Shown: positions 1,181 through 23,284 of the stretch, one piece after another | Layout of the letters: each line of letters begins with the position of its first letter | How positions within the stretch are numbered: position 1 is the stretch's first letter | DNA from: Hydrogenophaga pseudoflava | GTDB taxonomy: Bacteria > Pseudomonadota > Gammaproteobacteria > Burkholderiales > Burkholderiaceae_C | Assembly (NCBI RefSeq): GCF_031020795.1 | Contig: NZ_JAVHJP010000008.1 | Span: forward strand, 1 to 64,000 | Direction: 5' to 3' | Length of the DNA stretch: 64,000 nt | Position numbers and translations under genes: made by a program | The notes under the pieces: model-generated | Database searches by the model: none | Told to the model about the DNA's origin: nothing | The model's input: the letters and a program-made list of their open reading frames with translations, nothing else

Positions 1181-1188
1181 GGTGATGC

Positions 1189-4894: not shown

Positions 4895-4966
4895 GGTGAT
4901 TTCCTCCGATTGCTGTCACAGGCCCAAACCAAGCCTGCGTGGACGTCTAGCAATCGGTGGTGACGT

Positions 4967-5003
4967 TCTAAAGTGGCGCGCGACTTTAGATTCGCAGCGA
5001 ATC
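4967..5003. promoter_or_regulatory. Two abutting palindromes upstream of tnsA
   Basis: Two perfect dyads lie side by side. The first has arms TCTAAAGT (4967-4974) and ACTTTAGA (4983-4990) around the GC-only spacer GGCGCGCG. The second has arms GATTCGC (4989-4995) and GCGAATC (4997-5003) around a single A. They sit 73-109 bp upstream of the tnsA start, where an operator or a TnsB-binding end repeat would be expected. No convincing sigma-70 promoter was recognised around them. The function (repressor operator, transposon end site or both) is inferred only from position and symmetry. Confidence 0.45.
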
Positions 5004-5383
5004 ACGAGAAAAGCTGCAATAGAGACTGCATACGACGTTGGCCTCAGTCGAGTGACCTGTGGAGCGCCAGGCACAGACAAGCTGAACCCAACTGCATGCT
5101 GCGCGGCCTGTTCGCTTGGCTGGTGGGCAATGTGATGAGCAAGCTACGGGAAAGTGAGCACATGCTCGCACAAAACAGGTGCTTTGCTACCTCGTTTTCG
5201 AACCCTTGCTGCTGAATCCTTGCTCAACATTCCGCTCTCCTATCCAATTTCGTTTCAGGGGGATGGAAGTTAATGCAGTAGCACGAAACGGGTCAATCGA
5301 ATTTATTGAATGAATAGCCCTTGCTTGATTGACTTTGGTGATTTAGATTAAAGTCATTTGGTATGACTTCCAGGGCTTTAAAT
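5004..5383. other. Gene-free, AT-richer stretch between the tns core and the defence island
   Basis: No credible coding sequence was found. The stretch contains an imperfect dyad (GTGAGCA-CA-TGCTCGC, 5153-5168), several TTGCT motifs (near 5207, 5219 and 5321), an inverted repeat TCAAT (5293-5297)/ATTGA (5305-5309), and three iterations of a TGACTT/AAGTCA motif at 5330-5336, 5350-5356 and 5364-5369. Such clustered short repeats would fit the end of a Tn7-like element, but no TGT...ACA terminus could be fixed, so this is only a candidate zone for the transposon end. Confidence 0.4.
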
Positions 5384-6009
5384 TTAGAATCGTTGGCTTG
5401 ATGCAGCTACAGGCCAATTAATTGGATGGAAGCAGTCCGAGAACTCATCGATAAGCTTGCGCCAGCGGGCCTGGTTTTCAGGAATGCCGTTCGAGTTGCT
5501 CAAGGAGTCGTAGACGAGCTTGGGGGGATAGCCCGTGACGAACTTGGACAACTGATGCATGCCGCCATGTGTGTAGCTGTTCAGGGTTTTCCACGCGATG
5601 TCTTTGTACGCTTGAAGCTGCGCGACGATGTGCTTCGGGGCTTCTGTACCACGTCCAGGCGTTTCAGCATGTCGGCCAGCATGGGCAGGTCGTCTCCGCG
5701 GCGTGCGGTCTCCACCGTCAGCGGCAAGGACAACTTTTCGACTTGAGATTCAGTGGCCGCGAACTTCAGCCAAATGCCACGCACCAGGGTCTCAAACTGA
5801 GGTCGCAAAAGCGTGATGGCCGAGGCAGGCATACCGCTTTGCATCAAGAGCATTGCTGCCGTTGCGTGCTCCAAAGAAAGGAGTCCTGACTGGAATGCGA
5901 GCTCAAAGCGCAGTTCAGGGTACGGCTCTAAGTCGTCGACCAAGTCATGCACAGTCTGGTGCAACTCCAGACTCTTCTCCAACGTCGTTTGGAGCTGCTC
6001 ATCATTCAT
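5384..6009 (-). pseudogene. DUF6988-like protein, frameshifted
   Basis: The ATG at 6009 opens a frame of 142 codons that ends at 5581, but its last 20 residues are unlike the rest. Shifting frame near 5640-5650 gives a continuation that stays open to a stop at 5384-5386 and carries 'AWKTLNSYTHGGMHQ' and a terminal 'FSDCFHP' segment. Together they form about 200 residues, with a 'LLRPQFETLVRGIWL' helix in the first part, a layout I associate with the DUF6988 family (function unknown). A one-base indel is the simplest explanation, either a true mutation or a sequencing error. It lies just downstream of herA in the same orientation, but a 116-bp gap separates them. Confidence 0.6.
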
Positions 6010-6125
6010 ACTTTTCAGACCGCGTTGTTTCGCAGCTCTCTAGGGTGACGTAGTCTATAAAGTTGAGGTGCTTAAGCGACCAGTGCACCTATAACCCTGG
6101 AGAGAGTGAAAGCGTTCATTGCCAT

Positions 6126-7871
6126 TCAAGGCAACGCCTGGCCCCATCCCGAGAAGTTGCCATCATCTGATTTCGGGCGTGGAACAGCATCGGGCGCTCT
6201 AAGCATTGTTGGCATGGAGATGCTTCCGCCAAAGACGATGGCGGTTTGTCGAGCAAGCCCGGCGATACGACGAACCTCTCGGCGGTCTGCCCACTCGCTG
6301 GCCGTTTGAACCGCGTTAAGGTCCTTCTCCGAGGTCAAACGGAACGTCACCCAGTTGTTGCATTGAGAGAGAACAGTTGGCGAAATCTCCGATGGTCGCT
6401 GTGTGCTCAACCAGAGGGCGAGACCGAACTTTCGTCCCTCTTTCGCGAGGCGCTCGTAGGCCAGTGAATTGACGTCGGCGTCTTCACCTGCCCCAACGGG
6501 TCGCATGTAGTGGTGAGCCTCCTCCAAGACCAACAAGGTAGGGGCGGCATGCTCCTGACCGCGGCGGAAGAGTTCGTAGGCATAAAGCTCGAGCAACGAG
6601 CCCAAGACAAACGGCGTCAAATCGTGCGAGACGCGACGCAGGTTGACGATGTGTACGCGCCAATCGACCTGGGCTCCGCCAAAGATTTCCTCGACGAGTG
6701 CCGTGGACTCCGCCCGCCAGTTCAGTCCTGCGGCTGTCGGCGGCCCTCCGCGAACGTCCACAACGTCTGTAAACATGGGGTCTTCGACGAAGCGGTGTAT
6801 CCGCGTGAGCAAAGGTGAGACGTTTCCATAGAGGAACGCATCTCGGGTAAGGCCCCCGTTCTTATGCTGAATCGCATGACTCTCCGCGACAAGCGCGGCG
6901 AGCGCCACCATCGGAGGCCATTCCGTAACCGCTGGCAGTGCACCCCCTGCCCTCAGTCGCTTGAGGGCAGCATCTGCGGCGTCAGCGCCATGCGACCGGC
7001 AGTCATCGAACAGCACGGCCCGCGGACTATCGCCAAGGCCAGCACCTCGGTCTGCTGGGAACCATTTCAGCTTACTGATGTTTTCTAGGGCGAAGGAGAG
7101 CGCAGGACGTTGAGTCTTCTCGCTGGGGATAAGCAGTCGGTTGAGTCCAAACCGACCCAGGGCGTAGTACGGCACTTTCAACGAGTTCGCCTCCGTCCCT
7201 CCCAGGGTTGTCAGCTTCACTGCTCCGGCAGGAAGTTCTGGCAGGTCGAACGCCTCTGGGTACTCGCCGTTGATATCGAAGATGACGATGCGCGCTCCTG
7301 GCAGTCGAACCACCTGCTGCAGCACTGCTGCCGTAAAGCAGCTCTTGCCTTGTCCCGAGCTTCCCAGTACTGCGACATGCCTCGATATCAGGCTCTCCAG
7401 CCCGACGCGCAGCTGCCCGCCACCTCGCAAGTCCTCGCCCAAGGAAATAGGTAGGGCTGCATCGATAGGGTTGCCAAGCGCAGCCGACAGCTCAGAACTC
7501 GTCAACGGGAATGCCTCCGCCCCGAGGGGCGGTGTGGGCAGGGAGTCGCTGACGAATGTGGTGCCGCTGGCCTCACGGGCCAACCGCCCGACGACCACGC
7601 CCGTCACGTTCCGCAGAGGTTCAGACTGATGGGAGCTTGACCCCACGCCGAGCCGGTGAGCCTCCTTGGGCTCAGCGAAGCTCAGCGAGAGGACCTTCAT
7701 CACTAGCAAGCGGCTCCCCGCGTCCAGTGCCAGCAGGCTGCCGACTTCGGTCACGGGCGAGACGCCCTGGAGGTGCGAGGCGAATTGACCGCGGTGCATG
7801 TCCAAGAGGTTCAGCGTTACCTCGGGACCGTCAATCTGCACCACATAGCCGATGGGCTGCCGGCTCCTCAC
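6126..7871 (-). CDS. HerA-like hexameric ATPase of a SIR2-HerA defence module
   Basis: 581 residues. HerA/FtsK-type ATPases form hexamers that move DNA. Together with SIR2 they form a known anti-phage pair in which the complex depletes NAD+ on infection. An N-terminal HAS-barrel-like segment (about 1-75) is followed by Walker A 'GSSGQGKS' at 170-177, the HerA hallmark 'DINGEY' at 199-204, Walker B 'LLVLEEAHHY', and a C-terminal 'STQRPSEISPTVLSQC' motif typical of HerA. The ATG at 7871 overlaps the SIR2 stop by 4 bp, so the two are translated as a pair. It is the last intact gene of the operon. Confidence 0.9.
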   Translation of the reverse strand: MRSRQPIGYVVQIDGPEVTLNLLDMHRGQFASHLQGVSPVTEVGSLLALDAGSRLLVMKVLSLSFAEPKEAHRLGVGSSSHQSEPLRNVTGVVVGRLAREASGTTFVSDSLPTPPLGAEAFPLTSSELSAALGNPIDAALPISLGEDLRGGGQLRVGLESLISRHVAVLGSSGQGKSCFTAAVLQQVVRLPGARIVIFDINGEYPEAFDLPELPAGAVKLTTLGGTEANSLKVPYYALGRFGLNRLLIPSEKTQRPALSFALENISKLKWFPADRGAGLGDSPRAVLFDDCRSHGADAADAALKRLRAGGALPAVTEWPPMVALAALVAESHAIQHKNGGLTRDAFLYGNVSPLLTRIHRFVEDPMFTDVVDVRGGPPTAAGLNWRAESTALVEEIFGGAQVDWRVHIVNLRRVSHDLTPFVLGSLLELYAYELFRRGQEHAAPTLLVLEEAHHYMRPVGAGEDADVNSLAYERLAKEGRKFGLALWLSTQRPSEISPTVLSQCNNWVTFRLTSEKDLNAVQTASEWADRREVRRIAGLARQTAIVFGGSISMPTMLRAPDAVPRPKSDDGNFSGWGQALP

Positions 7872-9130
7872 ACCAAGTCTCCCAGGCCGAGGTCATCCGG
7901 GCCGTCCAGACCTTCGGCAGGCTCACGCAGCGTCTTCTCAAGCTTGCGCATGTCCTCGTCGTACAGCAGCGGGTCGGGGAGTTGGGCAGCCAACTTGTCG
8001 AGATACGCCTCTGCGCTGCCACCGACCACTGTCACGCGCGGGTTCTTCAGCGACAGAAGCTTGCGCACGGCGTCGGGCAAGGTGGCAGCCTTCACATCCC
8101 CGTTAAATTCCGGGAAATAGATAACTAGCTGCAGCGTCGGATTCAGAAGTGCAGAGCGGAGCAGTCGATTGATGTGCTCATCGCCGAAACCGTAGCCACA
8201 GACCACAAGGGCTGCCTGCGGACGGGCGAGGAACTCCGAGAACCGGCGGAACAGCTCACCGAGCACGTAGCCCACGGTCTGCATGTACTTCGCCGCCCTG
8301 GGCATGACCATGAGGCCGAGCTCAGTCCTGCCTGCGTCAGTGAGGAACATGTGAATGCGCCTGGCTGCAAGGCGCGCCTGTACCTCGTAGACCTGGTCGG
8401 CCTCTTCACGCCAGCTCAGTGACCCGTGCAGCTTGGCCAAGTAGATGTTGTAGACACCAAAGCGAGCCTCGCCTCGCGCCTGGGTGTTGCGATACCCAAG
8501 GTCAAAGCTTTGAGGCGAGAACCGCCGTCCATGGACACCCAGGAAGCCATTGACGACCTGCAGGTCGATGGACTCTGCGGCCCACTCGATAGCAAGGTCA
8601 TAGTTGGTCGTAAAAACCCAGGGTGCCGCCTGGCCGGGCTGACGTGCGGCCACGAGCTTCTGCAGCACTGAGCGGTGGTTCTCCAACTGCTCTGCGTCAG
8701 CTTCGGCGCCGCCTGGTGATGCCCACCAAGCTGGCTGTAGGAGCGCAGCGCGCACGACGGCGCGTGAAAGTTGGGCTCGAACTGCGGCGAGCCGGTCAGC
8801 CTCTGCATGTCCCTGGCGGCGCCATTCGACGTAGGCAATCTCCAACGCATCGCCCAACTCTTCAACGTTGGGAACCTCGCGCAGGCCCGGGTCGCCTTCC
8901 AGCGCGCCCTCTTTGACAAATTCTTGGTCGACGAGCCATTGGGCCTCGTCTGGAGACGTAGCCAGGAAGTCTCCCCATAGGCCTGCCATCGTCTTGCCAC
9001 CGGCTGCCACGGAAGCTCCGGCACCCAGCAACAGGCCAACGTTCTCAAGGCGCAGCAGGGTCGCCAGATGCGCCCTCAGCTCGACTTCATCCTTCAGCGG
9101 GGTCGCCCCGCGGACAGCTACAAATGGCAT
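7868..9130 (-). CDS. SIR2-domain NADase, partner of HerA
   Basis: 420 residues. The SIR2 fold is clear: 'GAGAS' at 36-40 (NAD-binding glycine loop), 'TTNYD' with N176 and D178, 'KLHGS' with the catalytic-type H235, and a C-terminal 'GYGFGDEH' near residue 330. Defence SIR2 proteins cleave NAD+ rather than deacetylate proteins, and the Asn and His expected for NADase activity are present. The last 60 residues are acidic and helical. Adjacent genes are HerA (4-bp overlap) downstream and the PLD-helicase upstream, with a 63-bp gap. That gap is the largest in the operon and marks the junction of the two modules. Confidence 0.9.
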   Translation of the reverse strand: MPFVAVRGATPLKDEVELRAHLATLLRLENVGLLLGAGASVAAGGKTMAGLWGDFLATSPDEAQWLVDQEFVKEGALEGDPGLREVPNVEELGDALEIAYVEWRRQGHAEADRLAAVRAQLSRAVVRAALLQPAWWASPGGAEADAEQLENHRSVLQKLVAARQPGQAAPWVFTTNYDLAIEWAAESIDLQVVNGFLGVHGRRFSPQSFDLGYRNTQARGEARFGVYNIYLAKLHGSLSWREEADQVYEVQARLAARRIHMFLTDAGRTELGLMVMPRAAKYMQTVGYVLGELFRRFSEFLARPQAALVVCGYGFGDEHINRLLRSALLNPTLQLVIYFPEFNGDVKAATLPDAVRKLLSLKNPRVTVVGGSAEAYLDKLAAQLPDPLLYDEDMRKLEKTLREPAEGLDGPDDLGLGDLV

Positions 9131-9193
9131 TCAACGCTCCCTGAATTTGGTCTGCTTGGTTGTCTGAGCCGAAACCTTGAACACTGGCCTCGC

Positions 9194-12100
9194 TCAGCTA
9201 GCCTCCTTGGCTAACTTGACCATGCGCTGTACGAGGTCCGACAGCGGAATGTCATCGTCGCCACTGCCCCGCCTGGCCTTCTTCAGACCGACGCGCTCCT
9301 TCTTAAGCGTGTTAGCGATGTAGGGCTGATAAAAGGCGGGAACGTACAAAGACGCGCCTGATGCCTCCAGCAGCCCTAGGGCAACCTCAGCGTTCACCAC
9401 GGTCGTTTCGAGCTTGGTCGTTCGCAGGGTTCTGCTTGCGTCGGGAAGGTACTGGCCCAGCTCGCTCAGCCGGGCTCCTGCTGGAGCGCTGGCAATCAAT
9501 GAGCCGGCAGACTGCAAGTGGGCTCGCTGATGAGCCATGCCTGCCGTAGCGGAAACCTTTTCGGCGCGTGCCCACCGCTCGAGCTCTTGGCGCGCCTCCT
9601 GGGCCGAGCTGGCGGCCTGTGTGCTGGCAGCGCCGGCAACTGCCACCGCCGTCTCAGATACGGTCGCTGGCAGTTGCTCGAAGCGCTCGATGGGCACCTG
9701 TTGTCCATCCTCCAGCGCCAAAGACCACCTGACCACCGTTCCGCCCTGCGGCACGGCGATTTCGGACCGCTCCAGAGCGGTGCAGTCTTCTCGCAGCGAG
9801 ACGATGAACTTGAGGACGCTCTCGAACTCTGGCACTCCCCAGGTGGCGAACTTCACCTGCTCCGAGTGCCCTGGCACACCGCGCTCATACAGCGCCCGCG
9901 AGGCTGTAAGGATGCAGGGCTCCAGCCCTGGGATGCCTCGAACCAGCAGCCCCTCGCCATGCTCGGTTTGAACAACCTCGGAGCCCAGTGCCTTCAGAGT
10001 CATCGACGACACCAATGCCCCGTACATCTCGTTCAGCGAGATGGGCAACTTTTCAGTAGCCGTCTCCTCGTCGAGAGACGCGTACACTGAGTAAAGCTCG
10101 TCCGGCGTCAGTTCCATCGCCTGGGCACGCTCCTGAGCTTGCTGCAGACGCTGCTTGACGCGCTGCTCCAGCTGGTCCCGGGTGATTTCCTTAGTCGCCA
10201 GCTGTCGCAGGTCGTTCGGCATCACAGGCAACAGGATGGTTTGCTGCGCACCGACAGTCCCCGCCGCCCCGCCTATGCGGCTTTGGAGCCTGACGTACAG
10301 CTCTTCCTCTGCTGTTCCGGGGTAAGCCAGGTTGGCAACGTAGATGACGTTGTGGCGTTGCCCGATGCGGTCGATGCGGCCGATGCGCTGTTCGACCTTC
10401 ATCGGGTTCCAAGGCAGGTCAAAGTTGACTAGCAGGTCTGCAGTCTGCAGGTTCAAGCCTTCGGCGGCCGCGTCCGTGCACAGAAGCACGTCAATTTCAC
10501 CAGCTACGAAGCGGCGCTTGACGTCCTCGCGCGTGGCACCGCGCCAGACAAGCGGTGACCCGGTCATGAACGCGCATCGCGGTCCGGCAAAGACGCCCAG
10601 ACGAACCGCTGGAGCACTGCGCTCAATCCACGATTGGATGTCCAACAGCGTGTCGTAGAAGCGTGTGAACAGAACCAGCTGCCGAACACGACCATTGGCA
10701 AGCGAGCGGCTCTGCAATACCTGCAGCAGCGCACGGACCTTCGGTGAAGGCTTCTGAGCCAGCGGTTCCAGTTGCCCGATGAGCTTGGAGAGCTCGTTGC
10801 GCTCCCACTCGAGGTCGTTCTTGCTACGGGTGTGCAGGCCGGCGAAAGTCACACCCTCACTTGCGGCTTCGGCCTCGTCATCAACCTCTTCTTCCCACTC
10901 TTCTTCATCCAGGGCTAGCTGCTGCGGCAGCTGCCCTGCAATGGCTAGTTGCACCTTCTCATGCCGCCGGCGGAGTGTGTCCAGGATGGCCTTGTAGCTT
11001 GATGCGAATCGCAGGTTGAAGAAGCTCAGCATGAAGCCCACAGCCGTGCGCTGCTGGCTGTGGGTCTTCACCTGCTCCGAGAGCTCCTGGCAGTAGGGCT
11101 CGAAGGATTCGTAGACCGCCCGGTCTTCCGCGGTCAGTTCAACTGCCGGCAGCAGGACTCTGCGCTCGGCGAGATTTCCAGCAAGCTTTCCGTGCTCGCG
11201 ATACTTCTGCAGCAGCCCTCGGTTGTGCCGCATCATCACCCGCGACAGGGGTGCTACAGCGAAGAGCAGACGGGTCACTGCCCGTCGGGCTGGGGCCACC
11301 GGCGCAGCAGGTGAGGACTCGATGGATTTCAACCACTGTTCGAGGTCACGGCGGTCCCGCCCGCGCAGCATCGTCCGGCGGATGAAACCAGCGACCGCGT
11401 CGTCGTTGGCCATCACGTGCCGCACCACGCGGCACATGAACGCCCATTCAAGCTCCTCGAGGTTTGCCCCTCGACGAAGCTTGCCGAGCAGGTGGTAGTA
11501 GGCCAGCGCCACCTGCGTCTGCTGTCCGAATGGGCCAAGGCGGCGAGTCAGCGAGGCCAAGTCCACAGCCTCAATCGGCTCAATCTGCATCGGCGTGGCA
11601 GTGGCGAGCCACAGGCTCCGTGCCTTGGGTCGCAGCACCTCTTTGGTGACTCCGAAGAGCTTGTTCCACTCAGCACCACGTTCCGCCCACTGTGTGGGGT
11701 TCGAGCGCCGGGCGTAGTGAGCTTCATCCAGAAGCACAACATCCCAGTCGGCAGACGCTTTCAAGTCCTGCTGACGTTGGTCGCGGACCAGCAGGCCCGT
11801 GGAGACGATGTTCAGGTCAACCGAGAAGAGAGACTCAGCGGGAATCTCGACCTCTTGCGGCCAAAGCAGCTTGTGGCGGTTCTTGTTACCAGTCAGCGCT
11901 CGTGAGAAGGGTAAAAAAAACTTTTCAGCCAGCTCTCGCTGCCACTGTGGAGCCACGCTGGCAGGGGCAGCAATCAGGACGCGCTTGACCTTGCCCGAAA
12001 GCACCAGCGACCGGAGGGCAAGACCGGTCTCAATCGTCTTGCCCAGGCCGACCTCATCACAGAGCATCCACGAGAGCGGCCAGCCGTCAACCAAGCGGCG

Positions 12101-13033
12101 CGCCACGATGCGTTGGTGCGGCCAAGCCTCAATCGGGGCTGTCTCGATGCCCAGGTACTGCCCGTTGCGCATGAACGGTGCGTCCTGGATGAATTTAAAG
12201 GAGAGCCACTCAGCCAGCGTCGGCTTGAGGTCGACTGGCGCCGCGCTGGTGCCGTCCACTTCAGTCGGCGGGTAGCTTGGCGGCAGCAGACCGGTCGACG
12301 TACCTTCGGCGAACGAGACCAATTTCGCTCGAACTGCGTCTGGCAGCGTAAGGACTCGGAACGCAGGATGCTCGCTGGCCCAGAGCGTTGCGAACTCTTC
12401 CTCGGCCTCGTCCGCACGCTGGCGTGCGTCTTCGCTCCGCCAGGCGCAGTGAACGTCGATGTTCTCGGCGTTCAGAACGAGGGCAGTCTTGGACTCGTTG
12501 AGCGAGCCGGAGATGTACATCCGGTCGCCAGCCGCATCAGCCAGCACCGCCCACTTTTCATGCACGTACCCGTCGACCTGCGACTCCAGCGGGATGGCCT
12601 TGCCGGTCTGGACGTGCACCCGCAAGGCAACGCGCACCTCCAGCAGGCCAGCCTTGACCATCCAAGCCAGGAGCTCCACCCCCCGTGCTTCAGGCTCTGA
12701 CCAATTGGTAGGCTCGCCCAGTGATGCCTCGAGCCCCTTGACCAACCGTTCCTGCTCGCCCTGCAGGATGGCCTCGACGTCGTGGGCCTCCAGGTCAGCG
12801 CCTACCAAAAGACGCATCTTTCCCTGACGCTCAGCGAACGCCGAAAAGCCTTGGGAAGCGGCAGCCAGCGAGGTGGACCTGAAGTAACCCGCCACCCGGT
12901 CGTAGCGAGTGGCGCGCTGCAGAACCGGGATGTAAAAGTCATGCAGGATGCTGACGGCCTTCAGCCCGGAGGTCTTGTAAGACAGCCTCCAGTTCCAGTC
13001 ACGGAAATTTCCGGGGGCCGTAACCATCATCAC
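9194..13033 (-). CDS. PLD-like/SNF2-type helicase, DISARM DrmD-like defence protein
   Basis: 1279 residues. An N-terminal phospholipase-D-like domain carries 'HEK' (H158, K160) and 'GSLNES' (176-181). The aspartate expected five residues after the Lys is shifted by one (A165-D166), so nuclease activity is uncertain. The SF2/SNF2 motor has motif I 'DEVGLGKT' (326-333), motif II 'DEAH' (436-439), and motifs V/VI in 'DAAAEGLNLQ' and 'QRIGRIDRIGQR'. An acidic insert ('EEEWEEEVDDEAEAASE') separates parts of the second motor half. A long helical C-terminal third has no recognised domain. Such helicases accompany DUF1156 methylases and DUF499 ATPases in defence islands. The start overlaps the methylase stop by 4 bp. 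Confidence 0.9.
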   Translation of the reverse strand: MMMVTAPGNFRDWNWRLSYKTSGLKAVSILHDFYIPVLQRATRYDRVAGYFRSTSLAAASQGFSAFAERQGKMRLLVGADLEAHDVEAILQGEQERLVKGLEASLGEPTNWSEPEARGVELLAWMVKAGLLEVRVALRVHVQTGKAIPLESQVDGYVHEKWAVLADAAGDRMYISGSLNESKTALVLNAENIDVHCAWRSEDARQRADEAEEEFATLWASEHPAFRVLTLPDAVRAKLVSFAEGTSTGLLPPSYPPTEVDGTSAAPVDLKPTLAEWLSFKFIQDAPFMRNGQYLGIETAPIEAWPHQRIVARRLVDGWPLSWMLCDEVGLGKTIETGLALRSLVLSGKVKRVLIAAPASVAPQWQRELAEKFFLPFSRALTGNKNRHKLLWPQEVEIPAESLFSVDLNIVSTGLLVRDQRQQDLKASADWDVVLLDEAHYARRSNPTQWAERGAEWNKLFGVTKEVLRPKARSLWLATATPMQIEPIEAVDLASLTRRLGPFGQQTQVALAYYHLLGKLRRGANLEELEWAFMCRVVRHVMANDDAVAGFIRRTMLRGRDRRDLEQWLKSIESSPAAPVAPARRAVTRLLFAVAPLSRVMMRHNRGLLQKYREHGKLAGNLAERRVLLPAVELTAEDRAVYESFEPYCQELSEQVKTHSQQRTAVGFMLSFFNLRFASSYKAILDTLRRRHEKVQLAIAGQLPQQLALDEEEWEEEVDDEAEAASEGVTFAGLHTRSKNDLEWERNELSKLIGQLEPLAQKPSPKVRALLQVLQSRSLANGRVRQLVLFTRFYDTLLDIQSWIERSAPAVRLGVFAGPRCAFMTGSPLVWRGATREDVKRRFVAGEIDVLLCTDAAAEGLNLQTADLLVNFDLPWNPMKVEQRIGRIDRIGQRHNVIYVANLAYPGTAEEELYVRLQSRIGGAAGTVGAQQTILLPVMPNDLRQLATKEITRDQLEQRVKQRLQQAQERAQAMELTPDELYSVYASLDEETATEKLPISLNEMYGALVSSMTLKALGSEVVQTEHGEGLLVRGIPGLEPCILTASRALYERGVPGHSEQVKFATWGVPEFESVLKFIVSLREDCTALERSEIAVPQGGTVVRWSLALEDGQQVPIERFEQLPATVSETAVAVAGAASTQAASSAQEARQELERWARAEKVSATAGMAHQRAHLQSAGSLIASAPAGARLSELGQYLPDASRTLRTTKLETTVVNAEVALGLLEASGASLYVPAFYQPYIANTLKKERVGLKKARRGSGDDDIPLSDLVQRMVKLAKEAS

Positions 13034-16000
13034 ACCACCGCAGCAGACCGCATCCGGAGGCCGAACAGCAGACCATCGGCAGCCTTCTTCAGAGCTCGGT
13101 CACCGCACTCCAGGGCCCACACCTCGAGCAGGTCTGTCACTCGCTCGATGTTGTCCTTCGCATGTGTCTCCAGGTACGCGCGGGCCACCGGAATGTCGCC
13201 CTGCTCGTACTTGACCAAGGCCCCCTGCATCACATCCCAGAGGCTCTGTGGTTTGTCCAACCGCTTGACGGAACGCTCGGAAGGCAGTGTCAGGCGAAGC
13301 TTGGAGCCCTTGCGCACCACGGGGGCGTGGTATCCGACGTCATCCGATGCTTGCGCTTGGCCACGGCGACCCGTCGCCTCTTGGTTGTACCCGAGCATGC
13401 GGTCGCCGTCCTCCAATCGATAGCCAGCAGCCTTGGCTTCCATGCGAACGTTGAGAGACTTGGCTACGTTGTTGGCTTCGTCAAAGGCCATCGCACCCAG
13501 GCCGAAGATGCCGAACAGCGTCAGGGCCATGGAGGTCTCCGGGTCCAAGTCGTCCACAGATAGGCGGCCGTGCGTGATGCGGCTGATTTCCTGAGCGGCG
13601 ACAACGCGGGCGGCCTCGTTCATGGCGCGGACCGGGCCCACCGGCTCGTTGCCATCCACAACGGGCCAGGCCTCCGACAGCACCTGCAGTGCGCGCCCGT
13701 AAGAGGCCACCATCCGGTCAACTGGGTTGAGCTGCAGTGGCTCGAAATCGTGCAGCGCTTGCCGCACGGACTCGCGGACCTTGTTGGCCACACCGGTACC
13801 GCCAATGCCGGTCCAAGTGGACGGCAGGCGGTCTTCAATCGGGCGCTTGCGGCAGGTGATGAAGATGGAGCTGGCAGCCGCGGCCACGTCCTTCTGATGC
13901 ATCGAGTTCTCGCCCTCGGATTCGACCGGGAAACTGGAAGTGATTTCCCACCCGGACTCGATAAGTGAACGCGTCAGCGTCTCCCATGCCTCCTGCTGCT
14001 TGTGGGTGAACATCATCGTCATGAGTCCGTCGTCGCGTAGCACGCGGCGACAGTCTCGGAAGATGTCGGTCATCAGGCGCTCGTAGGCCGTCGAAGCAGC
14101 CGAAGCAGACCCATCGCGGACTGGATTGGCCACTGCCTCGTCGGCCTTGTTGGTCATGCGCCGAGTGAACAAGGAGGGATACTGGTCAGCAAGGGTGCGC
14201 TTCTGCCAGACATAGAAGAAGTCAGACAGTTCTGCGTACTGCACGTTGTTGTAGTACGGCGGGTCAAGCGCCAAGAGGTCGACGCTCCCGTCCGCAACAG
14301 CCGTCATAGAGGCGGCAGAGCCGTTGTTAATGGTGACTGGGGGCTTGCCGCCGGTGGCCTCGAAAACCGGCTTCACGAGCTCGGAAATCCCGCGGTATGC
14401 GTCCAGAACCTGCGACAGACCCCAGGCTGCGCCAGAGTTCGGCCCAGAGAAAATCATCTCCCCGAAAGTCCACTTCATTGAGAAGTCATGGCGCGAGAAG
14501 GTCCCTTTGATGACTCCTCGCGTGAATTCCCATCGGGTGTAGGCGCTGTTGTAGTCGATTCCCTTGTCCAGCGCGAACTGGAGGTACGTGATGACTGCGC
14601 GCGCGCGCTCAGTCCCGAGCTCTTCGATGATGGTCGGCTGGAGGCGATTCAGTTCCTCCGTCAAGACCAGGTGCCCAAGCAACTGGCGTGGCGTGAACAT
14701 GTCGCACCACCGGGTAATGCCGTAGAGGCGGTGCCCCCGGTTGTAGTTGCTCTGCTCAGGAATGCTCTCGGTCGGAATTAGGCCGGCCTCATCCCAGCGC
14801 TCCCAGTTCTCTTTCAGCTTGGCTTCAGCCAAACGCAGACCTTCGAAGTCGCACTCGTTTGGCGCCCTGAAGTAGCGAACCTTTTCCACCTTGAGTTGAC
14901 CCGCACGCGCACCTGTCGAGAACCGCTGCAAGTTGCCGTGCTTGTCGAGCTTGGGTTGCAGGCGGATGGCCACGACGCTGTAGAGCCGGTCCGTCCATTT
15001 GCCTTGCGGCGACTCGCCTCGGGCTTGCGCCTTGATTTCGTCGCCGTCGATGGCTTGCTTGCAGTGCACGCACTGGCCAACGCCGTCACTGACGGTGTAT
15101 CCATCCGGGTCTTCACCTCGCGGCCCGCGTCCGTTCTTCACGCGGTATGTCTCAAAGTGGACTTTGCCCTGCTTGGAAGCGCCGTTGGGAACCACCCGCA
15201 CGCCCCATGGGTCGCCCGCCTCTTTAGATAGCCAGTAGGTGTTCAGCAGCGGGGCTTCTCCGCCGCAGTGGGGGCACGTGACTTGACGGGTGTACAGAAA
15301 CCCCATGAAGTCGTGCTCTCTGGAGAACTGAGCAACAAGGTCCTCATTGTCCTTCACGCAAGACTTCAGCGACTGGAGCTCGCTTTCGGGGATATCCGAG
15401 AACTCGCAGTACGGCGCCATTTGGCCTTCAACCCGGGAAAGCAGGCGCTTCCCCCAATGTTCTATGTCCGCAAAGAGGCCGGGGCCAAAGCGCGCGGGGT
15501 AGTCCAAGGTGGCATGAAGAATGGTGGTCGCTACGGGGTTGAGCTCGTTCGCGACCACTGTGTGCCCGAGTCGCAGTGCCTCGAACGGGATGGAACCGCC
15601 ACCTGAGGTTGGGTCCAGCACGACCAAGCCACTTGCTTTCGGTGGATGGTCATTGGCGAAGGCACGGCCGTAGGCATACAAGTCTTCGGAGGACCAGCGT
15701 AGCTCTCCTCCGAGGAGTTGCTTCACCTCAGGCAACTTGGCGAACTCGATGCGAGCTGCGACATGGGCCGGGTCGCCCATGATGCGAGAGACGGGCCATG
15801 CATCACCCAAACTGAAGTCAGTGACGGTGAGAGGCTTGGTTTCGGCTTCCCATCGCTTCAGCACCGGATGGTTCGCAATTTCATCGCTGCCGGTACGAAG
15901 CAGCGCGATGGTTTGGCGCGCCTCGGCCCGTCTCAGGTTTTCGGCCTCAAATGCGCGCTGCGTGACAGCAGTGATTGGCAACCATTCCTTGCCCTGGCTA

Positions 16001-16320
16001 ACCTCAATGCGCTCCAGCAGCGTGCCGGTCAAGGCCCATGCCTGGTCTCCGAATTTGACGACTTTGCGCTCGATGCCAAGCTCCCGAACGAAGGTATCCG
16101 GGTCGGTATCAGCTGGTGCCAGAGATGCAACGATGGCAGCCCGAGATGGCGTCAACGGGCGACGTGCCCACCAGACGTGCAGGAAATAGAGCGGCGGCAG
16201 CGCCGAACTCGCGCCGCGTTCGCGCTGGGTTTCAGCTCCCACTTGGTGGCATGGGAATCCTGCCTCAATCAGACGAAGGTCAGTGCGATTGGTCATCGTT
16301 GATTTCTTGCTGATGGTCAC
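13030..16320 (-). CDS. DUF1156 adenine-specific DNA methyltransferase
   Basis: 1096 residues. The DUF1156 N-terminus ('LIEAGFP', then 'HVWWARRPL' at 48-56) is followed by SAM-binding motif I 'DPTSGGGSIP' (236-245) and catalytic motif IV 'DPPYY' (686-690), the order of N6-adenine methylases. Two CxxC pairs (C349/C352 and C417/C420) between them form a zinc ribbon. A large target-recognition-like region lies between the motifs. It would mark self DNA, allowing the helicase/ATPase partners to act on unmodified phage DNA; this role is inferred from related systems. The ATG at 16320 overlaps the upstream stop; a second ATG at 16296 is possible. Confidence 0.9.
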   Translation of the reverse strand: MTISKKSTMTNRTDLRLIEAGFPCHQVGAETQRERGASSALPPLYFLHVWWARRPLTPSRAAIVASLAPADTDPDTFVRELGIERKVVKFGDQAWALTGTLLERIEVSQGKEWLPITAVTQRAFEAENLRRAEARQTIALLRTGSDEIANHPVLKRWEAETKPLTVTDFSLGDAWPVSRIMGDPAHVAARIEFAKLPEVKQLLGGELRWSSEDLYAYGRAFANDHPPKASGLVVLDPTSGGGSIPFEALRLGHTVVANELNPVATTILHATLDYPARFGPGLFADIEHWGKRLLSRVEGQMAPYCEFSDIPESELQSLKSCVKDNEDLVAQFSREHDFMGFLYTRQVTCPHCGGEAPLLNTYWLSKEAGDPWGVRVVPNGASKQGKVHFETYRVKNGRGPRGEDPDGYTVSDGVGQCVHCKQAIDGDEIKAQARGESPQGKWTDRLYSVVAIRLQPKLDKHGNLQRFSTGARAGQLKVEKVRYFRAPNECDFEGLRLAEAKLKENWERWDEAGLIPTESIPEQSNYNRGHRLYGITRWCDMFTPRQLLGHLVLTEELNRLQPTIIEELGTERARAVITYLQFALDKGIDYNSAYTRWEFTRGVIKGTFSRHDFSMKWTFGEMIFSGPNSGAAWGLSQVLDAYRGISELVKPVFEATGGKPPVTINNGSAASMTAVADGSVDLLALDPPYYNNVQYAELSDFFYVWQKRTLADQYPSLFTRRMTNKADEAVANPVRDGSASAASTAYERLMTDIFRDCRRVLRDDGLMTMMFTHKQQEAWETLTRSLIESGWEITSSFPVESEGENSMHQKDVAAAASSIFITCRKRPIEDRLPSTWTGIGGTGVANKVRESVRQALHDFEPLQLNPVDRMVASYGRALQVLSEAWPVVDGNEPVGPVRAMNEAARVVAAQEISRITHGRLSVDDLDPETSMALTLFGIFGLGAMAFDEANNVAKSLNVRMEAKAAGYRLEDGDRMLGYNQEATGRRGQAQASDDVGYHAPVVRKGSKLRLTLPSERSVKRLDKPQSLWDVMQGALVKYEQGDIPVARAYLETHAKDNIERVTDLLEVWALECGDRALKKAADGLLFGLRMRSAAVV

Positions 16321-16901
16321 TTCGACCGCATGGCGTCGAGCATGCGCACGACACCCTCATCGTTTGGTTGGCCAGCTAGGAATAATCGCAGCCCAGAGAC
16401 GGCCCAGCGGTTGGCATCTGGGCCGAAATCAGTGATGCGCGACAGCCAGTAGAGGGCTTCCTCACGCGAGAACAGCAGGACTCGCCGGGTCAGCAGTTCG
16501 ACACGCTCGGCGTCCGGCAGTCGCTCTTGAAGGCGGAAGATGAGGGCCAGCTTGGCCCCCGCCTCTTCATCCAGCGGCAGCGTGACCCGTTGGCGCAGAC
16601 CCTCTTGGGTCAAGAAGCGGTCCACTTGTGTCGGCACACCCGAAGCGTCGACCCCCGAGGAGCACGCCTTCTTCAGCAGGGGCAGCAGGCGGCGCAGCGT
16701 CTCTCCCTTGACGAAGCCGCGCTCCACCCAGTTCTCCCCCCGGCGCTGCTCGGCCTCGTCGCGGCTGACGCGCTCCTTGACAACAAGGATGGGCGGCGGC
16801 TGGTCTTTCCACTCGGTGATGCGCAGGACGAACGGCGCCGATTTGACCAGGCCCTTGAGCTGCCGGTCATAGTGGTCTTGCAGTGAGGCTTTCGTGGCCA
16901 T
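16317..16901 (-). CDS. Small conserved partner in the DUF499/DUF1156 defence module
   Basis: 194 residues, with no enzymatic motif recognised. A predicted mixed alpha/beta N-terminus ('FVLRITEWKDQPPPILVV') is followed by helices and a conserved-looking 'EALYWLSRITDFGPDANRW' segment at about 150-168. It occupies the place of the small DUF3780- or DUF7680-type proteins found between the DUF499 and DUF1156 genes in such clusters; the sequence seems closer to DUF7680, but I cannot confirm this. It starts 12 bp after the DUF499 gene and overlaps the methylase start by 4 bp, so it is probably a stoichiometric subunit of the ATPase or methylase complex. Confidence 0.75.
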   Translation of the reverse strand: MATKASLQDHYDRQLKGLVKSAPFVLRITEWKDQPPPILVVKERVSRDEAEQRRGENWVERGFVKGETLRRLLPLLKKACSSGVDASGVPTQVDRFLTQEGLRQRVTLPLDEEAGAKLALIFRLQERLPDAERVELLTRRVLLFSREEALYWLSRITDFGPDANRWAVSGLRLFLAGQPNDEGVVRMLDAMRSK

Positions 16902-16913
16902 GGGCTTGTGCCG

Positions 16914-19900
16914 TCAGGCACCCTTCAACTTTTTGATGAGACCGCAGTCGGCAACCGGGCCCTTGACCTCAAGCTCAGCGGCAGTGTTGGGGCCCACCTT
17001 GGCGACGCTCATCAGCACTTCGAACAGCTCCTGCAGAGCCTTCATGTCTGCCGCGCTGACGTCGTTGAGCTGCAGGCGAACGGTGCCACCATCGGGTAGG
17101 ACCAGGTCGAAGACGTCGAGGTAGTCCACCTTGGACTTGCCGCCCTCGGACGTGTACACGTTGCCCATACGCTTCAGCAAAGGTAGAAGCTTGGTACGAG
17201 ACTGGTCGGCTTCCACCCGGAAGCCTGGCTTCGCGGCGGCCGTGAGCCATCCTCGCTCGGCAGCTTTTGCGCGGGTGATGATGCTGTGCTCAGGCGTTAC
17301 CTGGTCGAGCAGCGTGTTGCCGCCGGACTTCAGCTCGGGCTTGTAGTTCTGCTCGGGTTCGCCGACGTAGTACGCGATGGCTTCCTCGCTTGCCAGCGTG
17401 TGCAGAGCGTCGAGCACCAGGTTCTGGGGAACATTCCCGTGCTGTGTCGTGATGACCGTGACGACGTCCGCGACCTTGGCGGCGCCTTGGTTGATGACAG
17501 CCTCGCGAGTCCAGTCCTTGACTTTGGCAGGGCTGATGCTGCCAGCCATCCAATCGCGCTTCTTGGCACCTGGCTCCGTGACGATGCCCCAGCCCGCCTC
17601 CTCAAGGTTGACGTCCATGGGCACGCCACCTTGTTCGCGTGCAAAGAATTTGTCGGGCTTGTCGTTGTTGTCCTGCAGGCGGTAGACACACCAGTAGCCT
17701 TGCACTGCACCCTGGCGAAGGATGCGGTCTAGTAGGTCGGCGCGCTCCAGCATCGGCCAGTTGCGGCGCTGGTTGAAATTGTCCCGAACCGTTTTGACTT
17801 GAAGAGCATCCACGGCGTCGAAGAACAACTTGTTCAGCTGGAGCAACTTCTCCTGGGTGAGCGCGTCGTCTTGGGTGACGAGCTCGCCGTCACTGCGCAG
17901 GACCTCGCGGACCTTTTGCACCACGGCGATACCCGATTCGCCGCTGGAGGTGCGGACCTCCTTGCGAGCCAAGTTGCCCGAGGCAGAGGGGTACCAAAGG
18001 GTGTCGTAGAGCCGAACGGTTTCCGTCTCGAGGGCCTTTTCGCGTTCGGCACGCTGGGCACGGAAGTTGTCCGCCTCCAGGTGCTTCTCGGTCAGGCCAT
18101 ACGCGCCCGGTTGCTCGGCCAGGCGACGCATCGCAATGACCTGCTTGGCAATGCCGAGCAGCTTTTCAAAGGCTTGCGCCGTGCGTTGTGTCTTGTCCTC
18201 GTTCCAGGGGCCGTCCTGCACGGCCTTGCAGGTCTGAGGCAGCAATAGCAGCAGAAGGTTCTGGTTTCGCCGCGGGCCGGCGGCGGCCTCAGTGACCATC
18301 CGTTCAACATCGACGCTGCTAGTGCCCAGTGCCACCACGGCAAGCTGGGGTTGTCCGGGCTTGTCCTCGACATGGCCCGGCTCAAAAACGTCGTGGACGA
18401 TACGAAAGACTCCGGCTCCATCTTTGATGGCCGACCGGACGATGCCTGACACGTACTCCTGCGCAAGCGCATCGGTGACACCGTTGCGGATGCTGCCCAG
18501 GGCGCGATTCACCGACGGGTCCAGGCTTGCGTAGTAGCGACCGTCGCGTTCGCGCAGGTAGAAGGCCTCGTCCTTCAAGGCCTTCAAGGCCATCTCAACT
18601 TGCGGACCGGACATTTCCGGCATCACGCAGGTGAGCTGAGCCTCCTGCTGGTTGATGCCAAAAAGATTGGAGGCGAGCCCCTCAGCACGGCCGGCGAGGC
18701 TGTGCAGGAAGACGGCACGCCACACCACGACGTGCATTGGGATGCCTGCAGGGTGTGGATTGGCGCGGTCGCACAGTTCAGCCCGGCTGTAGCCCGCTTC
18801 CATCTCGGAGGACCCGGGGCCGCCAACGTCGGTGTTGACGACGACCTGGAGCTCACCCGTGCCAGTTCGGCCCAGTAGCTCGTTGAGGATGCGCTCGTCC
18901 TTCAGGTCTATATCGCCGGTCTGCACAATCGACAGAGGACGCTGCTTCTCCCAAAGGTTGCGGATGACCAGCGACAGCATCCGCAGCACACCGCGGGTGC
19001 CTTGGAAGTTCTCGACCGAGGCGAGCTTCTGGTTCAGGAACTCGATGAAGGTCGGGTGGAACGGATAGAAGTTCTGGATGCGCTCGACATAGTCATTGCC
19101 TTGCGCGTGCGCCGGCAGGTAGCTGGACGACGCTTTGTAGGCCTGACCAAACTCTTTCGCGACCTCGGCTGCCTTGGCCGTGTCGATGCTGGTGAAGAGC
19201 CGACGGGCGAGCAGGCGTGAAAGCTCGGAGGCTGCTACGGGCACGACCGTGGTGGCGGCACGTGCGACCACGCTGTTGGTGCCTTCCGCAGCCTTCTCTG
19301 CAAGCGCAACTGCCTCGGCCTCAGTGACCTCCTTGCCCATCACCTTGCCCACGACGTCCTTCAGGGACTTGGCCTGGCGAGAGAAGGCGTCCGTCGAACC
19401 AGAGAGCGTGATGACCACCGACAGGCCTTCGTTGGTCTGTGCGTAGTTCAGCAGCGTCATCAAGAAGGCCTGGAGTTGCTCGGCGCCGTTGGCTCGCGCC
19501 GCTTCAAGACGGGTGGCGTACTGAGCCATCTCGTCCAGCATCACCAGCACCTTGTTGCCGGCGAACACTGCCTTCATGAACTCCTTGCCCGGGGCCGAGA
19601 AGCTGGTCACTTCGTCCTGCAGGGACTTGTAGAGCGCCTCGCCGCCTACCTGGTAGGCCATCTCGCCCCAGAGGGTGTACGGCTGAACCTTCGCGCCCTT
19701 GACCGCCTGAACCGGAAGCTCATCGCCGACGATGCCCACGACGATGACGCTGCCAGGTGCCGGCAATAGCTTGTCGTCCAACAGCGCCGTTGTGACTCCC
19801 GCCAGAGCGGTGCCGTGCTTGCCGATGTGCGTGAGACCAATCAGGGTGTGGGTCTTGCCGCCCCCGAAGCCGGTTTCCAGCCTGTGAACTGCGGGCGCGG

Positions 19901-20135
19901 ACAGGTCGCCGGACAGGCGTCGGTAGACGTCCCCCAGCACCTGACGCATGCCGTTGGTGGGGTAGGTCGCCTGTCCGAAGAATGTCTTCGGGTCCGTGTA
20001 GACGGCGCTCGCGGCCGCCGCACCACCTTGGTAGTGCTCCAGCACGGCAGACAGACTCGCCGTGAAGACTTCAGGGTTGAAGCTCCCGGTAATCAGGTCC
20101 GGGCGGGGTTGGCAGACTTGGTAGATGGTGGTCAT
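16914..20135 (-). CDS. DUF499 anti-phage-associated ATPase
   Basis: 1073 residues. The P-loop 'GFGGGKTHT' (89-97) and Walker B 'KVLVMLDEMAQY' (195-206, D201/E202) near the N-terminus are the hallmark of DUF499 proteins, which resemble the BREX/Pgl ATPase BrxC in layout. The region to about residue 480 is an AAA+-like module. The remainder is helical, with a probable winged-helix region and a small alpha/beta C-terminal domain. DUF499 proteins occur with DUF1156 methylases and SNF2/PLD helicases in defence islands. The start overlaps the upstream regulator stop by 4 bp, so both are translated as a unit. Confidence 0.9.
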   Translation of the reverse strand: MTTIYQVCQPRPDLITGSFNPEVFTASLSAVLEHYQGGAAAASAVYTDPKTFFGQATYPTNGMRQVLGDVYRRLSGDLSAPAVHRLETGFGGGKTHTLIGLTHIGKHGTALAGVTTALLDDKLLPAPGSVIVVGIVGDELPVQAVKGAKVQPYTLWGEMAYQVGGEALYKSLQDEVTSFSAPGKEFMKAVFAGNKVLVMLDEMAQYATRLEAARANGAEQLQAFLMTLLNYAQTNEGLSVVITLSGSTDAFSRQAKSLKDVVGKVMGKEVTEAEAVALAEKAAEGTNSVVARAATTVVPVAASELSRLLARRLFTSIDTAKAAEVAKEFGQAYKASSSYLPAHAQGNDYVERIQNFYPFHPTFIEFLNQKLASVENFQGTRGVLRMLSLVIRNLWEKQRPLSIVQTGDIDLKDERILNELLGRTGTGELQVVVNTDVGGPGSSEMEAGYSRAELCDRANPHPAGIPMHVVVWRAVFLHSLAGRAEGLASNLFGINQQEAQLTCVMPEMSGPQVEMALKALKDEAFYLRERDGRYYASLDPSVNRALGSIRNGVTDALAQEYVSGIVRSAIKDGAGVFRIVHDVFEPGHVEDKPGQPQLAVVALGTSSVDVERMVTEAAAGPRRNQNLLLLLLPQTCKAVQDGPWNEDKTQRTAQAFEKLLGIAKQVIAMRRLAEQPGAYGLTEKHLEADNFRAQRAEREKALETETVRLYDTLWYPSASGNLARKEVRTSSGESGIAVVQKVREVLRSDGELVTQDDALTQEKLLQLNKLFFDAVDALQVKTVRDNFNQRRNWPMLERADLLDRILRQGAVQGYWCVYRLQDNNDKPDKFFAREQGGVPMDVNLEEAGWGIVTEPGAKKRDWMAGSISPAKVKDWTREAVINQGAAKVADVVTVITTQHGNVPQNLVLDALHTLASEEAIAYYVGEPEQNYKPELKSGGNTLLDQVTPEHSIITRAKAAERGWLTAAAKPGFRVEADQSRTKLLPLLKRMGNVYTSEGGKSKVDYLDVFDLVLPDGGTVRLQLNDVSAADMKALQELFEVLMSVAKVGPNTAAELEVKGPVADCGLIKKLKGA

Positions 20136-20347
20136 GGGCGTCCCTGGCTGGTCGGTTCTTCTGGCACTGTTGAAATCTCCTCCTCCGTCGGCATCGTCAG
20201 CCCGTGTCGCGCGTAGTAGTCCATCACCAGCGCCTCAAGCATGTTGGCCATGCTCCGGTGCTCTCGTTCGCCCATCTGTCGAAGAGCGACCTTGAATGTC
20301 TTGGTTGTTTTGATAGACAAAACTTCTGTTTTTCTGGACGTGGCCAT
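20132..20347 (-). CDS. Ribbon-helix-helix regulator at the head of the defence operon
   Basis: 71 residues from the chosen ATG at 20347; an upstream ATG at 20383 would add 12 residues but would place the start inside the promoter/operator. The sequence shows a beta strand ('TEVLSIKTTKTF'), helix 1 ('KVALRQMGEREHR') and helix 2 ('SMANMLEALVMDYYARHG'), the Arc/CopG ribbon-helix-helix plan, followed by an acidic/proline tail. It is the first gene of the operon and overlaps the DUF499 start. The inverted repeat in front of it suggests autoregulation of the whole defence operon. Alternatively it could be an antitoxin-like subunit that contacts DUF499. Confidence 0.75.
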   Translation of the reverse strand: MATSRKTEVLSIKTTKTFKVALRQMGEREHRSMANMLEALVMDYYARHGLTMPTEEEISTVPEEPTSQGRP

Positions 20348-20361
20348 AGCTCGCCCCGGTG

Positions 20362-20408
20362 GTAAGTAGATGTATTCCATCATACTTACGAATCACCGAG
20401 GCGTTGAA
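20362..20408 (-). promoter_or_regulatory. Promoter with overlapping inverted repeat for the defence operon
   Basis: On the minus strand a -10 box TATGAT (20384-20379) and a weak -35 TTCAAC (20408-20403) are separated by 18 bp. Over and just after the -10 lies an inverted repeat with arms GTAAGTA (20362-20368) and TACTTAC (20383-20389). The downstream arm is 15 bp before the chosen start codon of the ribbon-helix-helix gene. A repressor on this repeat would block the promoter directly. Function is inferred from geometry and from the adjacent regulator gene. Confidence 0.5.
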
Positions 20409-20581
20409 AATCTAACTTCCGCATTCTTTCGCTGGATAGATGCGTGGGTTAAGAGCTTGATTGTTGGCCCGTATATCCCAACGAGCTATGACCCATGTAT
20501 GGGGCTGACACTCAATGTGCCGGCTAGCGTAACCAGGACCAGGGTAAAGCTAGAAAGCTAGGCAACAGCTACCGAAGCGAA

Positions 20582-20613
20582 GAGGCCCATAAATTTCTCA
20601 ATTTATGGGCCTC
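20582..20613. terminator. 14-bp perfect hairpin downstream of gyrB
   Basis: Arms GAGGCCCATAAATT (20582-20595) and AATTTATGGGCCTC (20600-20613) enclose a TCTC loop, 35 bp beyond the gyrB stop. No strong U-tract follows on either strand, so it may be a weak or Rho-assisted terminator or a transcript-stabilising structure for gyrB. A degenerate third copy of one arm (TTATGGG) is repeated at about 20625-20631. The rest of the 20414-20647 gap shows no gene; it is the junction between core chromosome and defence island. Confidence 0.5.
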
Positions 20614-20647
20614 GGTTTCTCAGCTTATGGGTCGCTCTACACTTACA

Positions 20648-23284
<2,637 letters not shown>

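Follow-up and report, generated by a model that had tools for sequence, protein, structure and literature searches.

Does a restriction system work together with a pair of genes for depletion of NAD+ (nicotinamide adenine dinucleotide) that follows it on the same strand, or are the two simply neighbours? This question is raised by a 64,000-nucleotide stretch of Hydrogenophaga pseudoflava (assembly GCF_031020795.1, contig NZ_JAVHJP010000008.1, positions 1 to 64,000; hereafter, the window), in which seven open reading frames (ORFs), all on the minus strand, lie head to tail from 20383 down to 6126 in the ORF listing. Five of the genes are a DUF499-centred restriction core, related to the bacteriophage exclusion (BREX) systems and Hma-like (small gene, DUF499, DUF7680, DUF1156 methylase and HKD-SNF2 helicase), and an ordinary SIR2-HerA (Nezha) pair closes the array. 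We consider it rather probable that the complete SIR2-HerA pair would be the terminal, co-transcribed back-up effector of this core. The genes and the junction between both modules are the following:

20132-20383, minus strand: first gene of the operon, 83 amino acids (aa); a relative (39%) lies upstream of DUF499 in locus L006
16914-20135, minus strand: DUF499 AAA+ ATPase (HmaC/BrxC-like) with C-terminal DUF7744
16317-16901, minus strand: DUF7680 protein, between ATPase and methylase
13030-16320, minus strand: DUF1156 methyltransferase (HmaB-like), presumed N6-adenine
9194-13033, minus strand: N-terminal HKD (phospholipase D-type) nuclease fused to an SNF2-type helicase, presumed restriction effector
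9131-9193, minus strand: junction from the helicase stop to the SIR2 start, 63 bp, with no terminator-like site; the equivalent in locus L024 has 57 bp
7868-9130, minus strand: SIR2 NADase of the SIR2-HerA pair
6126-7871, minus strand: HerA ATPase of the SIR2-HerA pair, last gene

In gene order, the junctions are a 4-bp overlap, a 12-bp gap, two 4-bp overlaps, the 63-bp gap and a 4-bp overlap, in agreement with the original prediction of a head-to-tail array with 4-bp overlaps or gaps of 12-63 bp, and all seven reading frames are backed by codon-position guanine-cytosine content. The upstream boundary, formerly set at 20408, moves to 20383, where the longest ORF of the first gene begins. As judged by sequence, the seven genes are probably one transcription unit. 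A promoter and terminator of its own in 9131-9193 had been named beforehand as evidence against such a unit: the terminator was looked for in these 63 bp and not found, and the sigma-70 scan of 4800-21000 decides little, because the minus strand was empty throughout, so that the junction was neither cleared nor implicated. For the same reason, the recognisable promoter that had been claimed upstream of the first gene was not confirmed.

The DUF499-centred core and the systems it resembles

The Pfam, NCBIfam and individual PADLOC models were run on ten proteins encoded at 32-20383, and motifs were counted in aligned rows filtered by length and score. The DUF499 ATPase matched PF04465 (3.5e-34, 118 bits against a cut-off of 23), DUF7744 at its C terminus (PF24897, 1e-29) and the HmaC model of PADLOC (262 bits), and its GGGKT motif was invariant in 53/53 rows. 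The methylase matched PF06634 (DUF1156; 1.6e-12, 47.8 bits against a cut-off of 24) and HmaB (248 bits), its N6_N4_Mtase match fell below the Pfam cut-off, and a PglX model was also among the PADLOC matches listed; DPPY was invariant in all of the 69 aligned rows. In the helicase, SNF2 (PF00176) and Helicase_C (PF00271) were both over the Pfam cut-off, and the N-terminal PLDc_2 match was weak and below it. Furthermore, NCBIfam NF042964 gave 320 bits, below cut-off, and HmaA 190 bits, the DrmD, PbeA and PLD_Helicase models of PADLOC scoring slightly higher than HmaA. Residues H158, K160, D166, G176 and N179, together with GLGKT and DE, were invariant (58/58 rows). The gene formerly called a small partner encodes a DUF7680 protein (PF24728, 7.3e-34). 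The 83-aa gene had been presented as a ribbon-helix-helix regulator, a label given by eye that found no match in Pfam, NCBIfam or PADLOC.

All three Hma models give matches in the operon, and by HmaB and HmaC it resembles Hma as outlined in PMC8565338. Its helicase is nearer to the PLD/HKD type (NF042964 over HmaA), and DUF7680 and the SIR2-HerA pair are additional. The claim of an Hma-like core beside a known NAD-depleting SIR2-HerA pair agrees with these family and curated-model matches. The original prediction had also called the core DISARM-like (defence island system associated with restriction-modification). Its helicase does resemble DrmD, but no DrmB was among the matches listed and the DrmA model was listed for the helicase alone, so that the drmA and drmB combination is missing. 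The claimed absence of drmA, drmB and PglZ therefore holds for DrmB and PglZ among the matches listed, with that reservation for DrmA.

The core is better placed with the DUF499-centred BREX-related (BR) systems described in the main text of PMC12839542, since a DUF499 ATPase, an N6-methylase with N-terminal DUF1156 and an SNF2-type helicase are present in the same locus. PglZ, which marks BR Type-3, was not among the matches listed. As far as that text goes, Type-2 shares with the operon the DUF499 ATPase, the DUF1156 N6-methylase, the lack of PglZ, back-up effectors adjoining the core, and a helicase in which an N-terminal HKD replaces TUDOR, the hallmark of the type (PMC12839542). The operon differs from Type-2 in having DUF7680, with an apparently comparable role, in the place of DUF3780, present as a stand-alone gene in 98% of Type-2 BR taxa, and in its back-up, a NADase pair. 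BREX-related capture (BRC) systems also have a HerA alongside BREX-related ATPase genes according to the same text (PMC12839542), but they carry PglZ, BrxA/B homologues and a DndH-like HerA, whereas the operon has no PglZ match and its HerA belongs to SIR2-HerA.

The ATPase, methylase and PLD-helicase are homologous to the DUF499/DUF1156/PLD set that NCBIfam names anti-phage-associated (NF042962-NF042964). They reach 154, 193 and 320 bits where the cut-offs are 1200, 1000 and 1100, which makes them a distant branch. This set, we presume, goes with DUF3780, and plasmid records label DUF3780 proteins as anti-phage-associated.

As regards DUF7680 itself, an alignment of 36 sequences was built, and the AlphaFold2 model (predicted local distance difference test, pLDDT, 93) had zero matches in the PDB at E <0.001. 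The name DUF7680 was absent from the open full text searched, and DUF3780 (PF12635) had no match in the genome of the window. A homology of both families was considered: the order of their motifs, compared by eye, and the strand/helix order of the models are similar, the DUF3780 model being poor (pLDDT 50). When the profiles were compared, P was 0.15 for a set of 3 DUF3780 sequences and 0.064 for a set of 23, and 4/40 column-shuffled controls outscored the real comparison. This is not significant, and homology is not claimed.

The SIR2-HerA pair and a conserved four-gene block

The SIR2 protein exceeded the NCBIfam cut-off (NF042942, 622 bits against 500) and matched the SIR2 model of PADLOC (609 bits) and SIR2_2 of Pfam, and HerA did likewise with NF042943 (923 bits against 800) and DUF87/HerA of Pfam. 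Both genes, whose ORFs overlap by 4 bp, are full length, and their best PDB matches, 8j4u_A for SIR2 and 8j4u_M for HerA, are chains of one solved complex, in line with SIR2-HerA (Gao19, Nezha) as presented in the excerpted text of PMC12322248. The difference from SIR2-HerA alone is that here they stand at the end of a restriction-like operon. GAGAS, FTTNYD and LHG are kept in SIR2 (FTTNYD and LHG in 23/23 aligned rows), and the Walker A motif GSSGQGKS and EEAH in HerA (Walker A glycines and lysine in 31/31 rows); with the anti-phage SIR2 adjoining HerA, the pair thus appears complete, with NADase and ATPase motifs intact. The residues of SIR2 correspond to the N, Y, D and H that PMC11263360 lists as catalytic in DSR2 and states to be conserved in the SIR2-HerA system.

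According to PMC12198126, SIR2 forms a dodecamer in SIR2-HerA, to which HerA binds as a hexamer, and the activation trigger is listed as unclear. This leaves room for an integrated machine, in which the DUF499/DUF7680 sensor or the HKD-helicase would pass DNA ends or single strands to HerA, and restriction that failed or was inhibited would directly switch on the SIR2 NADase. The common operon and the conservation of the block described below are in favour of such a machine, and BREX-recruited PARIS (phage anti-restriction-induced system) modules are a precedent for sensing inhibitors of restriction (PMC12839542, main text). The core and HerA could conceivably be coupled directly. However, the stand-alone models cover SIR2 and HerA almost from end to end, so that no extra domain is evident, no additional gene lies between the modules, and SIR2-HerA occurs elsewhere without such a core. 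Within the stretches examined, pairs lacking the DUF499 core were seen on pSymA of Sinorhizobium meliloti, on Leisingera and Rhodovastum plasmids, in genome G087 and in the viral contig locus L111. We therefore regard the integrated machine as very unlikely. The HerA proteins of these stand-alone relatives are 45-65% identical to that of the window.

Relatives of the methylase were sought by exact short peptides in one genome per species (84,980 species). Among the best 80 kept of 113 relatives, SIR2 and HerA were present in only one locus, L024, from a Methylibium metagenome-assembled genome (MAG), as seen by tblastn and by an ORF profile search of L002-L081. The order in L024 is methylase-helicase-SIR2-HerA, as in the window, with protein identities of 0.885 (methylase part), 0.794 (helicase), 0.807 (SIR2) and 0.798 (HerA). 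SIR2 and HerA are thus 80-81% identical between both loci, compared with 65% or less in the stand-alone pairs seen. Nucleotide homology is unbroken from 15624 to 6174, ending near the end of HerA, and the helicase-SIR2 gap is nearly the same (57 bp in L024 and 63 bp in the window). Nonsynonymous divergence (dN) is 0.08-0.15, and synonymous divergence (dS) lies at 1.4-1.6 in three genes and reaches a saturated 4.2 in HerA. Judged by these rates, the four shared genes evolve under purifying selection, and both modules have been kept by selection after long divergence.

A contig of genome G637 contains L024 letter for letter, and there the block adjoins genes resembling rsmB, ntrY and ntrX (names given by eye), which is another chromosomal site. 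Neither the Tn7-like nor the DUF6988 portion of the window has a homologous stretch next to the block in that genome. The presence of the same block beside different neighbours suggests that it moved, or was inherited, as a unit, as judged from one comparison to which the window belongs by choice. The first gene, the ATPase and DUF7680 are not visible in L024 because its contig is cut inside the methylase. Hence, the search for the seven-gene order in other genomes yielded the last four genes, in order, in one genome, and the full seven nowhere else. The earlier concern that the two modules might be found together in no other genome is narrowly dispelled by L024; since the four-gene order recurs there, the arrangement is no one-off, though it concerns two genomes only.

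The association of the core with SIR2-HerA is real but rare, and spans two genera. A search of 399 genomes from the family of the window, themselves a selection from a larger group, found the helicase (E 1e-60) in 3, one of them, G614, at only 34% identity. A close HerA was found in 2, the genome of the window and G637, each with a close helicase adjoining. Among 399 genomes of the order, HerA matches occurred in 37, the only close one being that of the window, and the next, G087, being 47% identical. Phage records gave no further occurrence at E 1e-50, plasmids at E 1e-100 gave only methylase relatives of 34-35% identity, and IMG/VR gave two short methylase fragments and one helicase locus, L128, in which SIR2 was not found in the 2.4 kb after the helicase.

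Lineage counts refer to 47 loci (L002-L042, L047, L049, L051, L060, L066 and L128). Loci whose methylase is 33-39% identical (L043-L046, L048, L050, L052-L059, L061-L065 and L067-L081) were left out; none of them had SIR2 or HerA by tblastn and ORF profiles. DUF7680 was detected in 41/47 loci. Four others (L005, L024, L039 and L042) are cut before its position, and it was not found in the 4.1 kb upstream examined in L016 or in the 2.8 kb in L060.

One member of the lineage, L033 (a Comamonadaceae MAG), has an ATPase and a DUF7680 protein 85-91% identical to those of the window, and says nothing on SIR2-HerA. At 1402-3792 of L033, the methylase is close to that of the window in patches and weak between them, and homology ends near residue 660, perhaps because the target-recognition region has changed or the operon is broken.

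Back-up effector or chance neighbour

DUF499-centred BREX-related systems carry back-up effectors, nucleases, next to the core, and the main text of PMC12839542, supplements aside, does not mention SIR2 or NADase. The combination of DUF1156, HerA and SIR2 was not found in the open full text, a scope outside which subscription papers and preprints fall. In the present lineage, the methylase-helicase junction was readable in 37/47 loci, being short in 28 (5-123 bp between matches) and longer than 500 bp in 9. The inserts include a GmrSD-type endonuclease (L007), a PtuA-like ATPase with a 170-aa gene (L008), Schlafen AlbA_2 proteins (L018 and L038), AbiD (L027) and a 198-aa gene of no known family (L006); that of L016 had no ORF of at least 90 aa. 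Loci L027, L032 and L047, all of Selenomonas, have inserts of 320-322 aa, of which the family scan covered that of L027. After the helicase there were an Abi_2 protein 50 bp away (L003), a STAND-type ATPase 121 bp away (L018) and, 235 bp away, a pair of SAVED-HNH and cyclase genes resembling a cyclic oligonucleotide-based antiphage signalling system (L021). In L011, L019, L023, L029, L031, L036 and L038, the genes that follow the helicase lay outside the scan.

Because passengers recur in the lineage and the back-up concept has been published for BREX-related systems, we take SIR2-HerA to be a further back-up effector of the exchangeable kind, attached to the BREX-related core. The mechanism that would follow from the named families, beyond layout, motifs and conservation, is a layered one. 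Adenine in host DNA would be methylated by the DUF1156 enzyme under the guidance of the DUF499 ATPase and DUF7680, and the HKD nuclease-helicase would engage and cut incoming unmethylated DNA. A single transcript would carry all genes, so that SIR2 and HerA would be co-produced with the core; if phage DNA survived, the SIR2 dodecamer and the HerA hexamer would assemble, deplete NAD+ and abort the infection. The modules would thus act in series, as layers with shared expression and not as one machine. The term modification-dependent restriction, used in the original prediction, has the wrong sense, since, from the layout, DNA without the self mark is expected to be restricted; similarly, one system, or a fusion, is too strong a description, as SIR2-HerA occurs without the core and the core mostly without SIR2-HerA.

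Several observations weigh against the role of back-up effector. The arrangement rests on two genomes, one of them a MAG; the contig of L024 breaks inside the methylase, and the full seven-gene order is seen in the window only. Where the sequence of a core-lineage locus extends 3.2 kb or more past the helicase, SIR2-HerA is present in 1/27 loci, and 26/27 are without it. Some genes after the helicase give no hint of defence passengers: two in L128 and one in L016 have no family match, that of L030 matches a PD-(D/E)XK transposase family, and that of L014 a general AAA family. The surest passengers are embedded between core genes, and SIR2-HerA is terminal, where an island neighbour could sit. 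In addition, a promoter could not be placed on the operon strand.

The location of the operon points in the same direction. It occupies a hypervariable site just downstream of gyrB. This gene was searched in twelve genomes of the genus (that of the window included), and usable downstream stretches were obtained from six relatives, L149-L154. Their homology to the window ends at the gyrB stop, or about 70 bp past it in L149, and past the end of gyrB no two of the six stretches could be aligned (15/15 pairs). Defence genes were present in 3/3 of the stretches scanned (L149, L151 and L152, not L150, L153 or L154): a caspase with EAD1 in L149, a type I restriction-modification system in L151, and Dnd/Pbe with GmrSD in L152. 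Since the site is variable and defence-bearing in relatives, adjacency of unrelated systems is to be expected there, and this is the main argument for the alternative that two independent defence systems became adjacent in an island and moved together once, with read-through giving shared transcription at most and no functional consequence. The stand-alone pairs of the Sinorhizobium, Leisingera and Rhodovastum plasmids and G087, and the 26/27 loci without the pair, fit this alternative as well. On the other hand, simple adjacency accords less well with a block kept at dS of at least 1.4, in two genera, at two sites and with a 57-63 bp junction, with passenger effectors recurring in the core lineage, and with a close HerA in 2/399 family genomes, both having the close helicase adjoining and one being the window itself. 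We consider independent neighbours possible, if somewhat doubtful.

If SIR2-HerA is indeed a back-up effector, a NADase pair in a BREX-related operon would extend the back-up principle past nucleases, and this compact locus would allow restriction and abortive infection to be tested together. The DUF7680 lineage, with its changing passengers, would be a place to seek further effectors. A bolder version, speculative and in our opinion quite unlikely, is that the DUF7680-marked BREX-related branch is a platform for exchangeable abortive effectors. In one lineage the exchanged part would be the whole SIR2-HerA machine, with its HerA fed or triggered by the core, so that escape of phage from restriction or its inhibition would be read out as NAD+ loss.

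A separate observation on the core concerns four alphaproteobacterial loci (L020, L021, L023 and L036), in which the DUF7680-type core is followed by phage-structural-like genes, recognised by eye; in these loci the core may ride in prophages.

Genes and repeats around the operon

The operon lies between chromosomal genes upstream and, downstream, a partial DUF6988 gene and Tn7-like transposition genes that extend to the contig start:

20648-23266, minus strand: gyrB, chromosomal neighbour upstream of the operon, with dnaN and dnaA beyond
5581-6009, minus strand: DUF6988/PDC-S52 ORF, outside the conserved block
4130-4894, minus strand: TnsA, Tn7-like
2148-4133, minus strand: TnsB/Mu-C, Tn7-like
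1189-2151, minus strand: TnsC/TniB, Tn7-like
32-1180, minus strand: TniQ, Tn7-like

Beyond dnaA, rnpA, yidC and mnmE follow in divergent orientation. The Tn7-like genes (32-4894) start 1.2 kb past HerA, their TnsA, Mu-C and TniQ matches are below the curated cut-offs, and the contig ends inside or just beyond the set, so that its far end is absent. Carriage of the operon by these genes was considered and set aside. The two gaps, searched separately for repeats, had no direct repeats and short inverted pairs only, and L024 has no homology there; the genes are treated as a neighbour. A second TnsB was searched for in the genome of the window, and none was found.

The ORF at 5581-6009 matched PF22491 at 2-81 of 167 and PDC-S52 of PADLOC. 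With about half of the Pfam profile covered, it looks truncated or broken, and it has no nucleotide counterpart in L024. In the gap between gyrB and the operon, two perfect 14-bp inverted arms enclose a loop of 4 bases (20582-20613). The homology of L149 runs through this repeat, which may mark the boundary of an island or act as terminator of gyrB. Finally, a short TSIEVYE-like protein motif was observed near the island in two genomes (L156, 5809-7053, and L149, 578-808), and the gene that bears it is possibly a shared mobile or boundary gene.

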